Below are positions 1 through 34,923 of a stretch of DNA of 34,923 nt, piece by piece. The stretch is taken from IMG/VR virus record IMGVR_UViG_3300042937_000383, positions 1 to 34,923 of that record; one strand, given 5' to 3'. The stretch is from a virus. The notes beneath the pieces are model-generated. The model was not told the DNA's origin. It saw only the letters and a program-made list of their open reading frames with translations, and searched no databases. The translations under genes were made by a program, and so were the position numbers. Every line of letters starts with the position of its first letter. The stretch's first letter is position 1.

Positions 1-1782
1 ATCCCAGTTAATTGCAGTGATATCAATCGGAATGATTCTGCGGTTCCCGGTTAAGTCATTAAGCAGTTGCGAATCATTTGACGTGCCACAAAGCACGGCA
101 TATCTTTGCATATCGATGTTGCGTTTTTGATATGGTGGCCTAACCGAAAACACTTGTTTTGAGCTTAATTCTTTAAGCAAACTTTCTTCTTTTTTGGACT
201 TACCGCCAAATTCATCATCGCATATTATAAGCTTATTACACATAAGAATAAGATCATCTTTACCAAGATCTAGTTTTGATTCTGCGTAATATTTATGCAA
301 AGGTTCTGGAAGTAACTTTCTAAAAAAGTTCGTTTTACCAATGCCTTGACCACCGCAAAGAACCAAGATTGTAACCGAGTGTATTCCGTGCATTGAAGCA
401 ATTATGCCAAGAAGCCATTTTTTAACGTAATGTTCAAGCGTTGCTGGTGACATATGTTTGCTTTCTTTGTAAATAATTGATCTACAAAGCTTTGCAATAT
501 GACCGCTTGTTTGCACGCCCTTGCATTGCTCAAGATATTCGGTAAAAGGATTGAAGCTTGGCGTGTTATCGCTGTCGATTATGCTGTTTACTATTTGCGA
601 TTGCACGGTATTGCCTAGTTGTTCACGTAGTTGAATAAAGATGGTATTGAATTCACGATCTGTAAAGTTGCGCCCGTCAATTTCCATGCTTTGCGTCACC
701 AGGTTATATTTTAAGTTATGTACGTTCAACATTGCTTTGATTGATTCGATTTCGCCTGAACTTTTTTGCGCTTTTTTCGATTTGATATCAACTTCAAATG
801 CTTTGTCAACTGTTGCAACAACTTCAGAGCCTGTAATACCCTTTTGATCAAGTGCTTTAAGTGTTGAAGCCTTTTGCTGTTCAACAGATTGCGAGTCACG
901 CCCTTTGGCATATTGCGCAACTGCAATAATTGTTTTTGTTTTTTCGGTTTGTGTAATGATTCCAGCTTTTGAACACAGATAAAAGAACGTGTTCAGGCTA
1001 ACAGCACCATTTTTGCTTTTCAAGCATTCGTTGTACTTCGCATCCGTTTGGAATTCATCATATTTCGGGCTTTGCGAGCTCACAGCGTGGAATAGCTGGC
1101 GTCCTTGCTCTCCAAGTCCGTTTGCGAGTGCAAAAGCGATCTGGAGCCAATCGTGGTACCCACCTGCGGTTAAGTCGATGTTCCTTTGTTGAATTTGTTG
1201 AATGATGTATTGATAATCGTCATCAAGTGCAATAATTGACGTACGTTCGACTTCTTTTACAACATCTTTAACATATATTTTGAATACCTTTGGTTCCTGG
1301 TCTCTTTGGTATAAGTGTGGATCAAAAGATACATATCGAAGCCGTGAAACATCTTTACAAGATTTATCAGCAACCACTTTATAAAAGTCTGCTAGGTACT
1401 TTTCAAGGCCGTAATACGCTTGTAAGTGTTTTTCGGGTTCGATCTTGAAATATGCCACCCAACCATAACCGCCTATTGAATGATGAACCGCCCACGTATA
1501 TGGATCTTGCTTCAGTGCTTCAATGTTGGCATCTGCATTGTCTTTTATATCGATGTCAATGCTTATAATATTCGAATGCTGGTCGATTGAATCTGCATTT
1601 CGTTTCTTGAACGTTCCAGATGGTGTCACGGCTGGCATTGTTTTCTTTTCACGCTTGCCAGTTCGAACCTCGTGCACTTGATCCTCCCACCTGCCGTCTT
1701 TTACATAACCTAAGAAGGTATAAAAAGATATGTTTGCTTCTGGCGTTGTATCCATTGCCGTTTTGAATATCGATATATTCAT
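1..1782 (-). CDS. VapE/VirE-family primase-helicase, N-terminal 594 codons, cut by window edge
   Basis: Replication protein expected to prime and unwind phage DNA. The first ~130 residues resemble the BT4734-like VirE N-terminal domain. A PriCT-like helical segment follows at about 180-250. The VapE helicase domain carries a Walker A GGQGIGKT at 477-484 and a Walker B-like LIICDDEFGG near 520, and the visible part ends NRRIIPIDITAINWD. The start at 1782 overlaps the preceding stop (TAATG), so the two genes are translationally coupled. The frame is open to base 1. The missing C-terminus matches the open frame at 34922-34539: merging the shared 4 bases gives a continuous protein of about 720 residues, a normal size for the family. 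Family assignment is confident; primase activity is inferred. Confidence 0.9.
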   Translation of the reverse strand, partial: MNISIFKTAMDTTPEANISFYTFLGYVKDGRWEDQVHEVRTGKREKKTMPAVTPSGTFKKRNADSIDQHSNIISIDIDIKDNADANIEALKQDPYTWAVHHSIGGYGWVAYFKIEPEKHLQAYYGLEKYLADFYKVVADKSCKDVSRLRYVSFDPHLYQRDQEPKVFKIYVKDVVKEVERTSIIALDDDYQYIIQQIQQRNIDLTAGGYHDWLQIAFALANGLGEQGRQLFHAVSSQSPKYDEFQTDAKYNECLKSKNGAVSLNTFFYLCSKAGIITQTEKTKTIIAVAQYAKGRDSQSVEQQKASTLKALDQKGITGSEVVATVDKAFEVDIKSKKAQKSSGEIESIKAMLNVHNLKYNLVTQSMEIDGRNFTDREFNTIFIQLREQLGNTVQSQIVNSIIDSDNTPSFNPFTEYLEQCKGVQTSGHIAKLCRSIIYKESKHMSPATLEHYVKKWLLGIIASMHGIHSVTILVLCGGQGIGKTNFFRKLLPEPLHKYYAESKLDLGKDDLILMCNKLIICDDEFGGKSKKEESLLKELSSKQVFSVRPPYQKRNIDMQRYAVLCGTSNDSQLLNDLTGNRRIIPIDITAINWD

Positions 1783-2219
1783 TATGCCACCCTATCAAAA
1801 TAAAAACTTTCAAAATGCTTAATAAACGCTTTAAAGTCAAGCGAATCGATAAATAAAGATTTGACTTTGATAATTGAGTGCACAACACTTGAAGGATGCT
1901 TATTAAACTTTTCGCCTATGTGGGTTTGAGTAATTGGCAAAGTAAAATACAGTAAAAAGAACAAAATATGTCTTGCATCTGCTAAACTACGGTATCTTTT
2001 ATTTGAATAAATGTCGTCGATATCTACTTGCTTTTCTTGAGCTAGCCAAGTTGTGATTTTGTTGATTGCAAGATCTGGATCTTTATTAAAGCTGTTTTTT
2101 TTGTACATGTATTTTTTCATTATCTCGGGCGTTTCGCCAATAAGCTTTTCTTGTTTTGGCTTGTACGTTATGCCAAAAAGTTTCATGCGCTCTTCTTTAA
2201 GTTGCTCACTAAGTGTCAT
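1782..2219 (-). CDS. DnaA domain IV-like DNA-binding protein
   Basis: 145 residues. The C-terminal half (about 78-130) reads like DnaA domain IV: a basic RYRSLADARHI helix, then IGEKFNKHPSSVVHSI, which lines up with the DnaA signature helix-turn-helix that reads the origin box (IG..F..RDHTTV.HA in DnaA). No AAA+ domain is present, so this is a DNA-binding part only. It overlaps VapE by one base and may guide VapE to the origin, which is inference. The start at 2219 has GGAG 8 nt upstream and overlaps the upstream stop (ATGA). The N-terminus (LSEQLKEERMKLFG) resembles that of the protein at 2655-3125, suggesting a duplication. An alternative is a transcriptional regulator using the same fold. 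Confidence 0.65.
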   Translation of the reverse strand: MTLSEQLKEERMKLFGITYKPKQEKLIGETPEIMKKYMYKKNSFNKDPDLAINKITTWLAQEKQVDIDDIYSNKRYRSLADARHILFFLLYFTLPITQTHIGEKFNKHPSSVVHSIIKVKSLFIDSLDFKAFIKHFESFYFDRVA

Positions 2220-2452: not shown

Positions 2453-2658
2453 TCTCTTATCTCCTTAATCCTAAAGTAAAATGCTGTTAAATTCATTAAT
2501 TCTCGTACGTTTAAATATTCGAAAGGGTGCAAACACATGAAGCCGAAACCATCGTGATCAAGGCGTCCGATTTTGTATCGTATTTCGCCCATAACTTCCC
2601 ACTTCAAAAGAACCCATTCGCCATGGGCTGTGTGGTTTGTTAGTAATTGCCATTTCAT
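2449..2658 (-). CDS. Hypothetical small phage protein
   Basis: 69 residues, rich in Trp and aromatic residues (MKWQLL, GEWVLLKWEV). No family recognised. Both ends overlap neighbouring genes by 4 bases, so it belongs to the same translationally coupled chain leading to VapE. Unlike most genes here it lacks a clear GGAG before its start and probably depends on coupling to the upstream gene. It may share a fold with the next gene, since both have an MKW start and a similar strand pattern. Confidence 0.55.
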   Translation of the reverse strand: MKWQLLTNHTAHGEWVLLKWEVMGEIRYKIGRLDHDGFGFMCLHPFEYLNVRELMNLTAFYFRIKEIRE

Positions 2659-3125
2659 AGCAGTGTATCCAAATAATTAAATAAATCGATATATCTTTTT
2701 TTGTTTATGTAGTCAGGTATATGCCGTTTGTAATTATATATATTCCTTTCAATAAATATATATTGTTGCATAAAACTGAGCTTGCAAACTTCGCGACTTC
2801 TTAAGTAGTAAACCAATGAATAAAGATCATAATTGACTCCAGTGTACTTATTTGCTTTTTTTGTGTTGAAGTCGTCGAAATTTATATCAAGAAAGGCGCA
2901 AGCTTCATTAATAAAATAAAATGCGGTAGTTTCAATTGATTCGACTTTATTAAAAGAAAGTACTTTTGTGACTTGTTCATGTGAATAATTTCGCCGTGCA
3001 ATTTCCGCTTTTTGCTTTTTATTTTGCGGAAACAACTTAAGCCTTTCGGCTTTAAGTTGCACGCTCATTGGAATATCCTTTTTGAATGAATCTGGCATTC
3101 CTAGGTATTGAATAACTTTTTGCAT
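2655..3125 (-). CDS. Hypothetical protein, probable paralogue of the DnaA domain IV-like protein
   Basis: 156 residues from the ATG at 3125, chosen because GGAGG sits 5 nt upstream; an in-frame ATG at 3149 has no such signal. Residues from about 20 (SVQLKAERLKLFP) match the N-terminus of the protein at 1782-2219 (SEQLKEERMKLFG). The C-terminal half has the same run of helices, but the IG..F..HPSSVVHSI signature is degraded, so DNA binding may be lost or altered. The stop overlaps the next gene by 4 bases. It may be a partner or a diverged copy of the initiator-like protein. Function is inferred. Confidence 0.5.
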   Translation of the reverse strand: MQKVIQYLGMPDSFKKDIPMSVQLKAERLKLFPQNKKQKAEIARRNYSHEQVTKVLSFNKVESIETTAFYFINEACAFLDINFDDFNTKKANKYTGVNYDLYSLVYYLRSREVCKLSFMQQYIFIERNIYNYKRHIPDYINKKRYIDLFNYLDTLL

Positions 3126-5738: not shown

Positions 5739-5770
5739 CAAAATTACAATATTTTTTAACCACTTGCAAA
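5739..5770 (-). promoter_or_regulatory. Bacteroidota-type promoter upstream of 5712
   Basis: On the minus strand TTTG (5770-5767), 20 nt spacer, then TAATTTTG (5746-5739). This fits the Bacteroidota housekeeping consensus TTTG / TAnnTTTG exactly. The start codon is 27 nt downstream of the -7 box. The -33 box lies inside a 28-bp repeat that is also present at the promoter at 6012-6042. Confidence 0.8.
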
Positions 5771-6011: not shown

Positions 6012-6042
6012 CAAATATAAGGCTTTTTTAACCACTTGCAAA
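6012..6042 (-). promoter_or_regulatory. Bacteroidota-type promoter upstream of 5972
   Basis: Minus-strand TTTG (6042-6039), 19 nt spacer, TATATTTG (6019-6012), a perfect match to TTTG / TAnnTTTG. The start codon is 40 nt downstream of the -7 box. The leaders of this promoter and the one at 5739-5770 both contain CAACAAA and end in AAACGGAGA, so the whole promoter-leader unit looks duplicated. Confidence 0.82.
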
Positions 6043-31621: not shown

Positions 31622-32886
31622 ATTTTTTTTACCTCTAAGCCAGCCATTCTAAAACGCATTATAGATGCTGCGGCAAAAGATAAATCTTTTTCAACAAGAT
31701 AACAAGTCCGACCTGTTTCATGACAAGCTATTAAAGAAGCGCCTGAACCAGAAAATGGATCAAGTATAAACTGACCAGCTTGTGTAATTTCGTAAGTCCA
31801 TATAAATAATTTCACAGGTTTTTGAGTCGGATGTATTCTTTGCTCATTTCTTTCGCTAGCCTTAATCATTCCGTTCCATTTATGATGAAACAACCTAGCT
31901 GAATTAACCATGTTTGACCATGCTAGTTCGCAATCGGAATTGTTATTTATTGCATCGCTTTCACGCTTATCCCAAATTAACCAGCCAGCAGAATTATGTA
32001 ACTTATTTGCATAATGATTAGCACCCCATGAAACAACGTTGTTGCTATATTCAAATAATATTGAGGGATCAAAATCTTTGTTATCATCAATAATAATATT
32101 GTAATCACCTCGTTTTGTTTCACCTGAACCAGAAGGACTCTTGTAATTTATACCATACGGAGGATCGGTTATAACGGCATCTATTTTGCCAAATATCTTT
32201 TTTATTAATTCTATATCATAAGCATCTGAAATAATTAGTTTGTGCCTATTGCCTATTAAATAAATATCCCCATATTTTACGCTTAATTCTTGAGCAATGT
32301 ATTCATTTGCTTGTTGAGCGGTTTCAACTTTTGTATAATTATTTGCCATATCTATTGCACTTGAAAATCTATTTTTGATGTGCTCTTGTTCCCTTACAGC
32401 TTTTAAAACCGCCGTGCGAGTTGCAAGATCATCATTTGCACGGGCTTCTTGTTTCACTTGCTCAACAACGTCTTTGTTTTGTGCAAGGGTTTGAAAACGT
32501 TCAACTTGTTGCTTATTGAACCCTAGTTTTGTGGCCGCTTCTTGTTTGGTTTCAATAGGCTTGGGTTCTGGTTTAGGGTCAGAGTGAAACTCCTCACCGC
32601 TGAGGATTTTCACTTTTTCTTGTACATATTGGTTATTTTTACCGCTTGCCTTTGGCATCGCTAGCAAAATCTCACCAATACGAACTTCCGCATCCATCAA
32701 AGCTTCTGCCAGCATTTGGGCTTCTTGTTTCTTTTGTTCTCTTACATCTTTTGCCATATCTAATTTATCAAGAGCCTTAATTCCAGCCCTTACCATATTC
32801 AATTGATCACGGCCAATAAGCACGAACTTTGCAAGGTCTTCAATCTTGCTAGGTAAAGTGTTACCTATATTCATTAATTCAGCCAT
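31618..32886 (-). CDS. DNA N6-adenine/N4-cytosine methyltransferase with N-terminal helical domain
   Basis: 422 residues from the ATG at 32886 (TGATG overlap with the helicase stop; GGAG 9 nt upstream). Catalytic motif IV DPPY at 241-244 precedes the AdoMet site FSGSG at 378-382, with RIHPTQKPVKL at 351-361 between: the beta-class order, typical of N6-adenine or N4-cytosine enzymes. The first ~215 residues are helical (QKKQEAQMLAEALMDAEVRI; QEAATKLGFNKQQVERF resembling a helix-turn-helix), probably for DNA binding. It probably protects phage DNA from host restriction; target site unknown. Confidence 0.9.
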   Translation of the reverse strand: MAELMNIGNTLPSKIEDLAKFVLIGRDQLNMVRAGIKALDKLDMAKDVREQKKQEAQMLAEALMDAEVRIGEILLAMPKASGKNNQYVQEKVKILSGEEFHSDPKPEPKPIETKQEAATKLGFNKQQVERFQTLAQNKDVVEQVKQEARANDDLATRTAVLKAVREQEHIKNRFSSAIDMANNYTKVETAQQANEYIAQELSVKYGDIYLIGNRHKLIISDAYDIELIKKIFGKIDAVITDPPYGINYKSPSGSGETKRGDYNIIIDDNKDFDPSILFEYSNNVVSWGANHYANKLHNSAGWLIWDKRESDAINNNSDCELAWSNMVNSARLFHHKWNGMIKASERNEQRIHPTQKPVKLFIWTYEITQAGQFILDPFSGSGASLIACHETGRTCYLVEKDLSFAAASIMRFRMAGLEVKKI

Positions 32887-34295
32887 CACTTCTTTCTCCA
32901 GTGCATCCAGAGCCACCCGCTTGCGTAGCCCATTAAATCTGTAAATTGTTTTGCTTCTTGCAAGTTACGACATAAACTCTTAACAACCCAAATCGAATTA
33001 ATCTTTTTTGCTTTTGATAGCAATGACCACGTTTCAACATCTGCAGACCGTGCCATTTGCATCGCTTCGCTTCTTGTGAGTTCCTGTAATTCCGCAACAA
33101 CTTCACGCTCTGTCTTCGGTATCACACAACCGCAAAACACGCACGCCCGTGCAACGTTAGGAATCAACGCCCCGCAATCTTTGCACAACTTCACGGGCGC
33201 AACGCCACTTGATTTCTTCTTTTCTTTCTTTTGCAAACTCCACTCCCGTGGATCATCCCAGAAACCATGCGTCAAAACGTTATTACCAAAGTCAAGAATC
33301 ATGAAGCCGTCTTTGCCATCCGCCGTTCTGGAACCACGCCCACACATCTGCAAATACAAGGGCACGCTTTTCGTGGCACGGTAAAGAATTATGCATTCTG
33401 TTGTAGGTTCGTCGAATCCCGTTGTAAAAAGCCCCACGTTTGACAAAACTGCGTCGGGTGTCACTTTATACCAGTCGAGTGCGTTTCGTCGTTCTACGGG
33501 GCTTGTAGAGGCGTCCACGTGCATTATGGGCACGCCGTGCGCTGTGAATTCCGCACAAAGTTCTTTGGAGCTTGCAATGTTCGAACAAAACACCAAAGTT
33601 TTTTTGCCGTTTGCTAACCGCTTGTAATTTTGCAAAACGCCCTTGTAAATTTGCGAAGTGCTGTACATTGCCGAAACTTGATTCGGATCGTAGTCACCAG
33701 CAACAGTCTTGATGCCTTGCAAATCAACTTGCACGCCGAAATAAGAAGGCTTGGCTAAATACCCTTGTTCAATCAAGTCTTGCACGTCCACAACGTTTAC
33801 AATGTCGGTATAATGCTTGTCCAGGCTTTCTTGGGTTCCTTGTCGATATGGTGTCGCCGTTGCGCCTATTACAACTGCATCCGGGTTCACGAACGGCATA
33901 AGCTTTGTGAATGTTTGCTTGTGCGCCTCGTCAAAAATAATCATATCCAGACGCTTGAAAAGTGCCAAATATTCGGGCTGGCTTAAGCGCCTGTAGATTG
34001 TCTCAACCATTGCAACATAAATCGAATATCTATTCAAGTGCGTTGTAAAGGCTTGAATGTATTCTGGTAGTATTTTAAGGCGGTTTAAGGCGCCACCAAA
34101 TTGTGTTAGCAACTCCACGCGGTCTGTAATGATCATAACCGTTTTGCCCTTTTCAATTGCACTTCTGCACATCTCTGAAAAGATCACCGTTTTGCCCGCT
34201 CCAGTCGGAGCGCAAAGAATGACTTTCTTGTGACCACTTGCAATTGCATTGCGAAGTTTCTGGATTGCTTCAATTTGGTAATTTCTTAGATTCAT
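32886..34295 (-). CDS. DEAD/DEAH-box SF2 helicase with C-terminal zinc-ribbon-like motif
   Basis: 469 residues. Motif I APTGAGKT (29-36), motif II DEAH (122-125), motif III GATATP near 144-150, and motif VI QMCGRGSR near 320. A CxxC...CxxCxC cluster at 371-390 may hold zinc. Related to Res-subunit/UvsW/RecQ-like translocases that remodel forks or R-loops. First gene after the iteron region: an ATTACAGAT copy lies 3 bases upstream of its start codon, where a bound protein could block expression. No GGAG precedes it. Confidence 0.92.
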   Translation of the reverse strand: MNLRNYQIEAIQKLRNAIASGHKKVILCAPTGAGKTVIFSEMCRSAIEKGKTVMIITDRVELLTQFGGALNRLKILPEYIQAFTTHLNRYSIYVAMVETIYRRLSQPEYLALFKRLDMIIFDEAHKQTFTKLMPFVNPDAVVIGATATPYRQGTQESLDKHYTDIVNVVDVQDLIEQGYLAKPSYFGVQVDLQGIKTVAGDYDPNQVSAMYSTSQIYKGVLQNYKRLANGKKTLVFCSNIASSKELCAEFTAHGVPIMHVDASTSPVERRNALDWYKVTPDAVLSNVGLFTTGFDEPTTECIILYRATKSVPLYLQMCGRGSRTADGKDGFMILDFGNNVLTHGFWDDPREWSLQKKEKKKSSGVAPVKLCKDCGALIPNVARACVFCGCVIPKTEREVVAELQELTRSEAMQMARSADVETWSLLSKAKKINSIWVVKSLCRNLQEAKQFTDLMGYASGWLWMHWRKK

Positions 34296-34538
34296 GTTAT
34301 TACAGATATTACAGATTATTACAGATGTTTTGCACGATCTGTAATATTTAAGTTATTTAAAATTCAAGAAGTTAATAAAGTTATTACAGATAAACAGATA
34401 AAAGTATATAAATAAGTATAATATTATTATTATTATATATATATACACATACACATTTTTATATATATATAGAACTACGTTTATTACAGATTTTATCTGT
34501 TTATCTGTAATACTTGTAAGTACCTTTGTTTTCAATGC
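34296..34538. repeat. Iteron region: candidate replication origin or operator
   Basis: A 243-bp gene-free stretch with the 9-mer ATTACAGAT at 34299-34307, 34308-34316, 34318-34326, 34383-34391 and 34483-34491, and inverted at 34337-34345 and 34503-34511. Two further ACAGAT cores occur at 34394-34399 and (inverted) 34495-34500. A 22-bp perfect inverted repeat (34382-34403 against 34491-34512) brackets a nearly pure AT core rich in ATT and AT steps. It lies between VapE and the helicase gene. TTATCTGT is loosely like a DnaA box. An origin, a shared operator, or both would fit. Confidence 0.75.
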
Positions 34539-34923
34539 TTAAGCAAATTTTTCAAGCGGTTCGCTTCTTTTTGCCACAAACCAGCATCCAGAAGTTTTGC
34601 CGTTTATTACTTTGTGTTCTTTCACATAACCGTAATTACTCAACACTTGACCAAGCTTTTTTGGCGTCAATCGCAAAGTTGTATCCTGGCTGATGATGTT
34701 TAATATTTGGGTGTTGGTTAGCCATTCGGAGTACTTTGCATTTGGTTCTTTGAAGTATTGCAATAGCAGTTCCTCTTCAACGCAAACGGACTTATTTGCG
34801 TATGTAAAATCGTTTAAAATGCTTATTTCTTCTTTGTTCAATTGCCATTCTTTACCACACAATACATACTCATTATAAAGCTCTGCAAACAACATATCTT
34901 TATCAACTTCGTTATAAAGATCC
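34539..34923 (-). CDS. VapE/VirE-family primase-helicase, C-terminal ~127 codons
   Basis: Open from the window edge; the first full codon is at 34922. DLYNEVDKDMLFAELYNEY, then ILNDFTYANKSVCVEEELLLQYF and RLTPKKLGQVLSNYGYVKE, is the C-terminal helical and winged-helix-like part of VapE proteins. It continues the gene at 1-1782 if the window ends are merged over their shared 4 bases. The ATG at 34895 is therefore an internal codon, not a start. The stop at 34541-34539 borders the iteron region. Confidence 0.85.
   Translation of the reverse strand, partial: DLYNEVDKDMLFAELYNEYVLCGKEWQLNKEEISILNDFTYANKSVCVEEELLLQYFKEPNAKYSEWLTNTQILNIISQDTTLRLTPKKLGQVLSNYGYVKEHKVINGKTSGCWFVAKRSEPLEKFA

Follow-up and report, generated by a model that had tools for sequence, protein, structure and literature searches.

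At oriC, asymmetric 9-mer DnaA boxes lie near an AT-rich unwinding element, and in P4 the alpha protein carries a C-terminal winged-helix origin-binding domain (1ka8) and ori/crr has iterons. P4 alpha is also a single protein that serves as both primase and initiating helicase (PMC7145576). The C-terminal domain of SaPI Rep helicases recognises iterons directly downstream of rep, and the SCCmec protein Cch2, a probable self-loading helicase, binds direct repeats immediately downstream of the gene that encodes it (PMC7581432). The origins of E. coli PICIs contain two sets of iterons, one on each side of an AT-rich region (PMC6092414). No description of replication origins in Bacteroidota phages was found in the literature searched, of which coverage was partial and without bioRxiv.

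The locus described here is the gap between the genes for VapE and an SF2 helicase in a 34,923-bp window, comprising the whole of virus record G000, and on the basis of its sequence it is very probably an iteron replication origin. It resembles the SaPI/PICI pri-rep-ori arrangement in that the gap lies directly downstream of the putative initiator gene in the window and ~60 relatives (with the exception of L150), iteron sets are present on both sides of an AT-rich region, and the VapE helicase core is homologous (PF05272, E=9.4e-28; profile match to PDB 7pds, ‘Similar to D. nodosus vapE’, E=2.9e-11). In contrast to SaPIs and PICIs, this type is found in tailed phages of apparent Bacteroidota hosts rather than satellites, the window’s VapE is a primase and helicase in one protein with BT4734-like_N and PriCT_2 domains, the iteron words are different, small DnaA-like proteins are encoded nearby, and the VapE C-terminal domain has no sequence match to SaPI Rep. 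On these likenesses the element is filed with the SaPI/PICI rep-ori replicon type, in an apparently ordinary tailed phage and with a putative C-terminal recognition step; as the window appears to be a phage and not a satellite, replicon type alone is claimed. The window’s VapE is also, like P4 alpha, a single primase-helicase protein with a C-terminal winged helix (here predicted), although this domain matches the 1ka8 fold weakly (rank 39, probability 0.21) and the iterons differ from those of P4 in sequence and position. SCCmec differs from the window in having three short iterons only, a separate primase and a different host group. As at oriC, asymmetric 9-mers lie near an AT-rich core, but the window’s repeats are not TTATNCACA and changes in the iterons do not follow the phage DnaA-like proteins.

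All seven exact copies of ATTACAGAT in the record (five on the plus strand, two on the minus strand) are located within 34299-34511 (Table 1). This recount agrees exactly with the first-pass annotation, which reported five direct and two inverted 9-mers, here starting at positions 34299 to 34503. Outside the VapE-helicase gap, the 34.9-kb record contains no copy, in line with the rarity elsewhere that this annotation’s reading implied, and shuffled sequence contains a mean of 0.35 and a maximum of two, versus the seven observed. A tenth base is common to 7/7 copies, making the unit an asymmetric, non-palindromic 10-mer, TATTACAGAT, which reads ATCTGTAATA on the gene strand. The perfect 22-bp inverted repeat reported earlier was likewise recovered; its arms are 87 bp apart, and each contains a full iteron and a degenerate one. 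Inside it lies a 79-bp core that had been described as AT-only, and while its AT-richness was borne out (87% A+T), the AT-only portion is a run of just 29 bp (34417-34445). The proximal copy was correctly placed 3 bp from the helicase start codon at 34295. A BLAST search of the gap against phage records returned a sole match of 22 bp (E=0.2), and no GC-skew switch was detected at the site, where skew is uninformative because nearly all genes are on one strand.

Table 1 Coordinates of the putative origin and flanking genes in the 34,923-bp window.
Feature	Position	Strand	Remarks
Putative replication origin: iteron gap from VapE stop to helicase start	34296..34538	.	80% A+T; ~60 relatives with clade-specific iterons in same gap
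Three tandem iterons (34299, 34308, 34318; spacing 9, 10 bp) abutting helicase start codon	34299..34326	+	Helicase-proximal tandem group in nearly all clades
Lone opposite-orientation iteron	34337..34345	-	
First arm of 22-bp inverted repeat: full iteron 34383-34391 and degenerate TAAACAGAT 34391-34399	34382..34403	+	
AT-rich core, probable DNA unwinding element	34404..34482	.	Equivalent AT/alternating cores in relatives
VapE-proximal iterons: 34483 (+), degenerate 34495-34503 (-), 34503 (-); contains other arm 34491-34512	34483..34512	.	
VapE N-terminal and ATPase parts (BT4734-like_N, PriCT_2, VapE helicase core)	1..1782	-	Severed from C-terminus by record ends
VapE C-terminal part, DUF3874-like, predicted winged helix; proposed iteron-binding domain	34539..34922	-	Pfam, phrog_15962, AlphaFold2, co-variation with iterons
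SF2 helicase (ResIII / phrog_16), start codon abuts putative origin	32886..34295	-	
Small DnaA domain IV-like protein (PF08299)	1782..2219	-	Not iteron-specificity determinant in testable relatives

The record is a circular permutation whose ends (1 / 34923) overlap by 4 bp (ATCC) and split VapE: residues 1-594 are read from the start of the record and the C-terminal part from its end. The junction is unbroken in L012 and L013, and the gap therefore truly lies between VapE and the SF2 helicase, as originally proposed. Both flanking genes are on the minus strand. The VapE C-terminus matches Pfam DUF3874 at E=7.6e-4, which is below the family’s curated cut-off. Of the two DnaA-domain-IV-like proteins that had been reported beside VapE, the one at 1782-2219 is upheld by a PF08299 match (E=1.5e-10), while that at 2655-3125 has no Pfam match. 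Elsewhere in the window are ORFs that resemble terminase, portal, capsid and tail genes in their length, order and residues.

The same layout was found at the same place in ~60 other VapE phage contigs. Reading from the VapE stop codon, one or two sites are followed by a core that is AT-rich or alternating, then by a tandem pair, one inverted site and, on the helicase side, two or three further sites in tandem that run up to the helicase start codon. Close relatives (L008-L013 and L017) keep six or seven copies, consistent with the conservation that the earlier reading anticipated, and in L014-L016, L077 and L079, whose VapE and DnaA-like proteins are 78-81% identical to the window’s, the sites are kept in place as ATTATAGAT or ATTACAGAT. 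L061, a fragment of a distantly related phage, carries nine copies beyond the end of its own VapE, including the same 9/10-bp triple and inverted copy as the window. A search with a VapE profile (A2) recovered 70 further contigs at 43-47% identity, nearly all of which have a cluster of 9-mers around the VapE stop codon, with the word specific to the clade (CTTACCACC/T/A, CTTACTACA, CTGACAACA, CTTACCACA, AGTGACTAC, AGTGACTAT, AGTAACCAC and CGACTACC). Clusters exceeded all 40 dinucleotide shuffles in 15 of the 18 gaps tested, with L108 marginal; by the same test, Nonlabens P12024L and Cellulophaga phi46:1, which have related VapE proteins, showed no significant iteron cluster after VapE. In some relatives iteron copies extend inside the VapE coding end, and in L150, exceptionally, the array is upstream of VapE rather than downstream. 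Analogous arrays are present in a Mucilaginibacter MAG (L151; word CCTGTAAC) and in Flavobacterium mumin phages, where AGGTAAC arrays occupy the gap before VRR-NUC. Judging from the named relatives and MAGs, the hosts are apparently Bacteroidota, from which the window’s own host is inferred. The gap after VapE provides a sequence rule for locating these putative origins in dozens of contigs. Most other contigs with a match to TATTACAGATATTACAGAT contain only two or three copies, which look like chance, and the copies in L064 lie inside a degenerate tandem repeat. A scan of genome contigs returned two loci only.

Comparisons between close relatives with different iterons point to the C-terminus of VapE. 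For example, L094 and L102 have helicases that are 97% identical and VapE C-termini that are 56% identical, and at the helicase start codon their DNA identity increases from ~60% to 96%. In an ORF-by-ORF comparison, VapE alone among the recognised replication proteins differs substantially between them; a methyltransferase also differs, as do several small ORFs, one of them 248 aa long. Similarly, L114 and L148 have VapE N-termini that are 98% identical and helicases that are 97% identical, with C-termini at 58%, and the sister pair L085/L101 shows 97% identity between its VapE N-termini against 52% between the winged-helix parts. In partial Mantel tests across 59 contigs, which serve as a guide only, as they permute related sequences and use hand-curated iteron words, the iterons correlated with the VapE ATPase part (r=0.25) more strongly than with the C-terminus (r=0.15; both p=0.001), and correlations with the VapE N-terminus and the helicase were not significant. 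Taken as sequence comparisons, these data support the C-terminal domain as the part of VapE that co-varies with the iterons and that would determine specificity. However, the swapped tract runs unbroken through the VapE C-terminus and the gap, and linkage, rather than co-selection, could therefore explain the joint change. Natural swaps of this kind, in which DNA-binding domain and iterons change while the rest remains near-identical, lend themselves readily to testing how specificity between initiator and origin evolves.

The predicted structure of the C-terminal domain (AlphaFold2, mean pLDDT 85) consists of helices followed by a winged helix, with a predicted recognition helix at residues 87-97 and a two-strand wing. 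Its closest folds in the PDB are winged helices, including the RFX DNA-binding domain (probability 1.00, E 0.03-0.06), while searching the PDB by sequence gave chance-level matches only. K88, the second residue of the predicted recognition helix, occurs in the window, L061 and L150, the only three phages with ATCTGTAAT, and in 0/23 others; among the 26 sequences it is the sole position with a residue common to these three and absent from all the others. Sharing is partial at R84 and at the wing residues K109/T110. The C-terminal domains of L061 and L150 are 29-31% identical to the window’s, and since the L150 array is upstream of VapE, an identical neighbourhood does not account for its matching word. 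In this small sample, the association of K88 with ATCTGTAAT is no more than suggestive.

It is likely that the gap serves as the phage origin and that VapE is the initiator, binding the iterons beside its own gene via its C-terminal winged helix. From these comparisons we infer physical binding, melting and priming, as well as origin activity. The initiator would be VapE, a VapE/D5-like fusion of primase and helicase, whose C-terminal winged helix would bind the asymmetric ATCTGTAATA iterons on both sides of the AT-rich core. ATPase rings would then assemble on either side of the core, melt it and unwind outward, and the N-terminal domain would prime; once bound, the iterons nearest the helicase gene could in addition dampen its expression. 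A tentative extension, on balance doubtful, is that the winged helix and iterons form a matched cassette exchanged among phages by recombination, in a tract ending at the helicase start codon. If so, closely related phages would acquire mutually incompatible origins, and a readable recognition code (e.g. K88 for ATCTGTAAT) may decide interference during co-infection.

The first-pass annotation had named the DnaA-like proteins as the binders of the repeats, which would make the iterons diverged DnaA boxes. Most of these phages do encode a small PF08299 protein (31 of 37 records searched had a match, two of these being a MAG’s chromosomal DnaA only), and the iterons are, like DnaA boxes, 9-10 bp long and non-palindromic, some of them (CTTACCACA) resembling the DnaA-box sequence TTATCCACA. 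The proposal is nevertheless improbable and is contradicted by a double dissociation in relatives. L094 and L102 carry different iterons (CTGACAACA versus CTTACCACA) but encode 146-aa DnaA-like proteins that are 100% identical and 187-aa DnaA-like proteins identical at 186/187 residues; the DnaA-like proteins of L114 (AGTGACTAT) and L148 (AGTGACTAC) are also 100% identical, and those of L115 and L130 are 98% identical, again with differing iterons. Conversely, L143 and L148 have the same iteron and DnaA-like proteins that are about 79-80% identical. Moreover, L129 (46 kb) and L128 (30.8 kb) have iterons and no PF08299 match, although many contigs are fragments, making a missing gene in them weak evidence (as in L128), and phi46:1 has a small PF08299 protein but no iteron cluster after VapE. 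The DnaA-like proteins are thereby ruled out as the specificity determinant in these relatives, independently of the linkage caveat above, and by analogy would not fill that role in the window; they may have a non-specific or accessory function. This corrects the plausible idea that these widespread small phage proteins read the repeats. A further apparent mismatch, L124/L163, was dropped because its 47.5-kb contig has a second VapE (L172).

Two other functions were weighed against an origin initiated by VapE. In favour of the repeats being operators of the helicase-methyltransferase operon, the proximal iteron borders the start codon of the helicase in almost all clades, and a protein bound there would probably affect helicase expression. 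It is, however, very unlikely that they are operators instead of an origin, given that copies flank both sides of the 87% A+T core and in some relatives lie within the VapE coding end, that no Bacteroidota-type promoter match occurs within the gap, and that the L150 array is upstream of VapE; autoregulation by an initiator would fit an origin too. The original proposal of a ‘phage origin or master operator’ is well supported for the origin, through its conserved position and layout, AT-rich core, iterons and accompanying replication genes in ~60 contigs, while nothing separately supports the master operator. A packaging, recombination or attachment site is suggested by L061, where VRR-NUC and terminase genes follow the array, but in the window the terminase-like genes are ~11-13 kb from the gap and none of the ORFs is evidently an integrase, and almost every clade has the array after VapE, leaving such a function the most improbable of those considered.

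Several additional features were observed in the window and related contigs. Two VapE-helicase modules are present in the L124/L172 contig, which may be chimeric or represent two phages joined in tandem. The small DnaA-like phage proteins (1782-2219; L152-L163) often occur as adjacent pairs and have the N-terminal motif LSEQL(R/K)EER in common. At L068:12532-12713, five copies of ATTACAGAT occur in ~180 bp at a contig end, by terminase-like genes, in an otherwise different phage. In the window, an identical 19-mer, TTTGCAAGTGGTTAAAAAA, is present twice, at 5739-5770 and 6012-6042 (-), each time followed by a TAnnTTTG element, and these duplicated sites ahead of the replication operon look like Bacteroidota-type promoters. 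Finally, in Flavobacterium phage mumin9-1 (L071:8500-8785), approximately ten AGGTAAC(C/T) repeats surround an AT-rich core before VRR-NUC, and by its sequence this array is a candidate origin in cultured phages.
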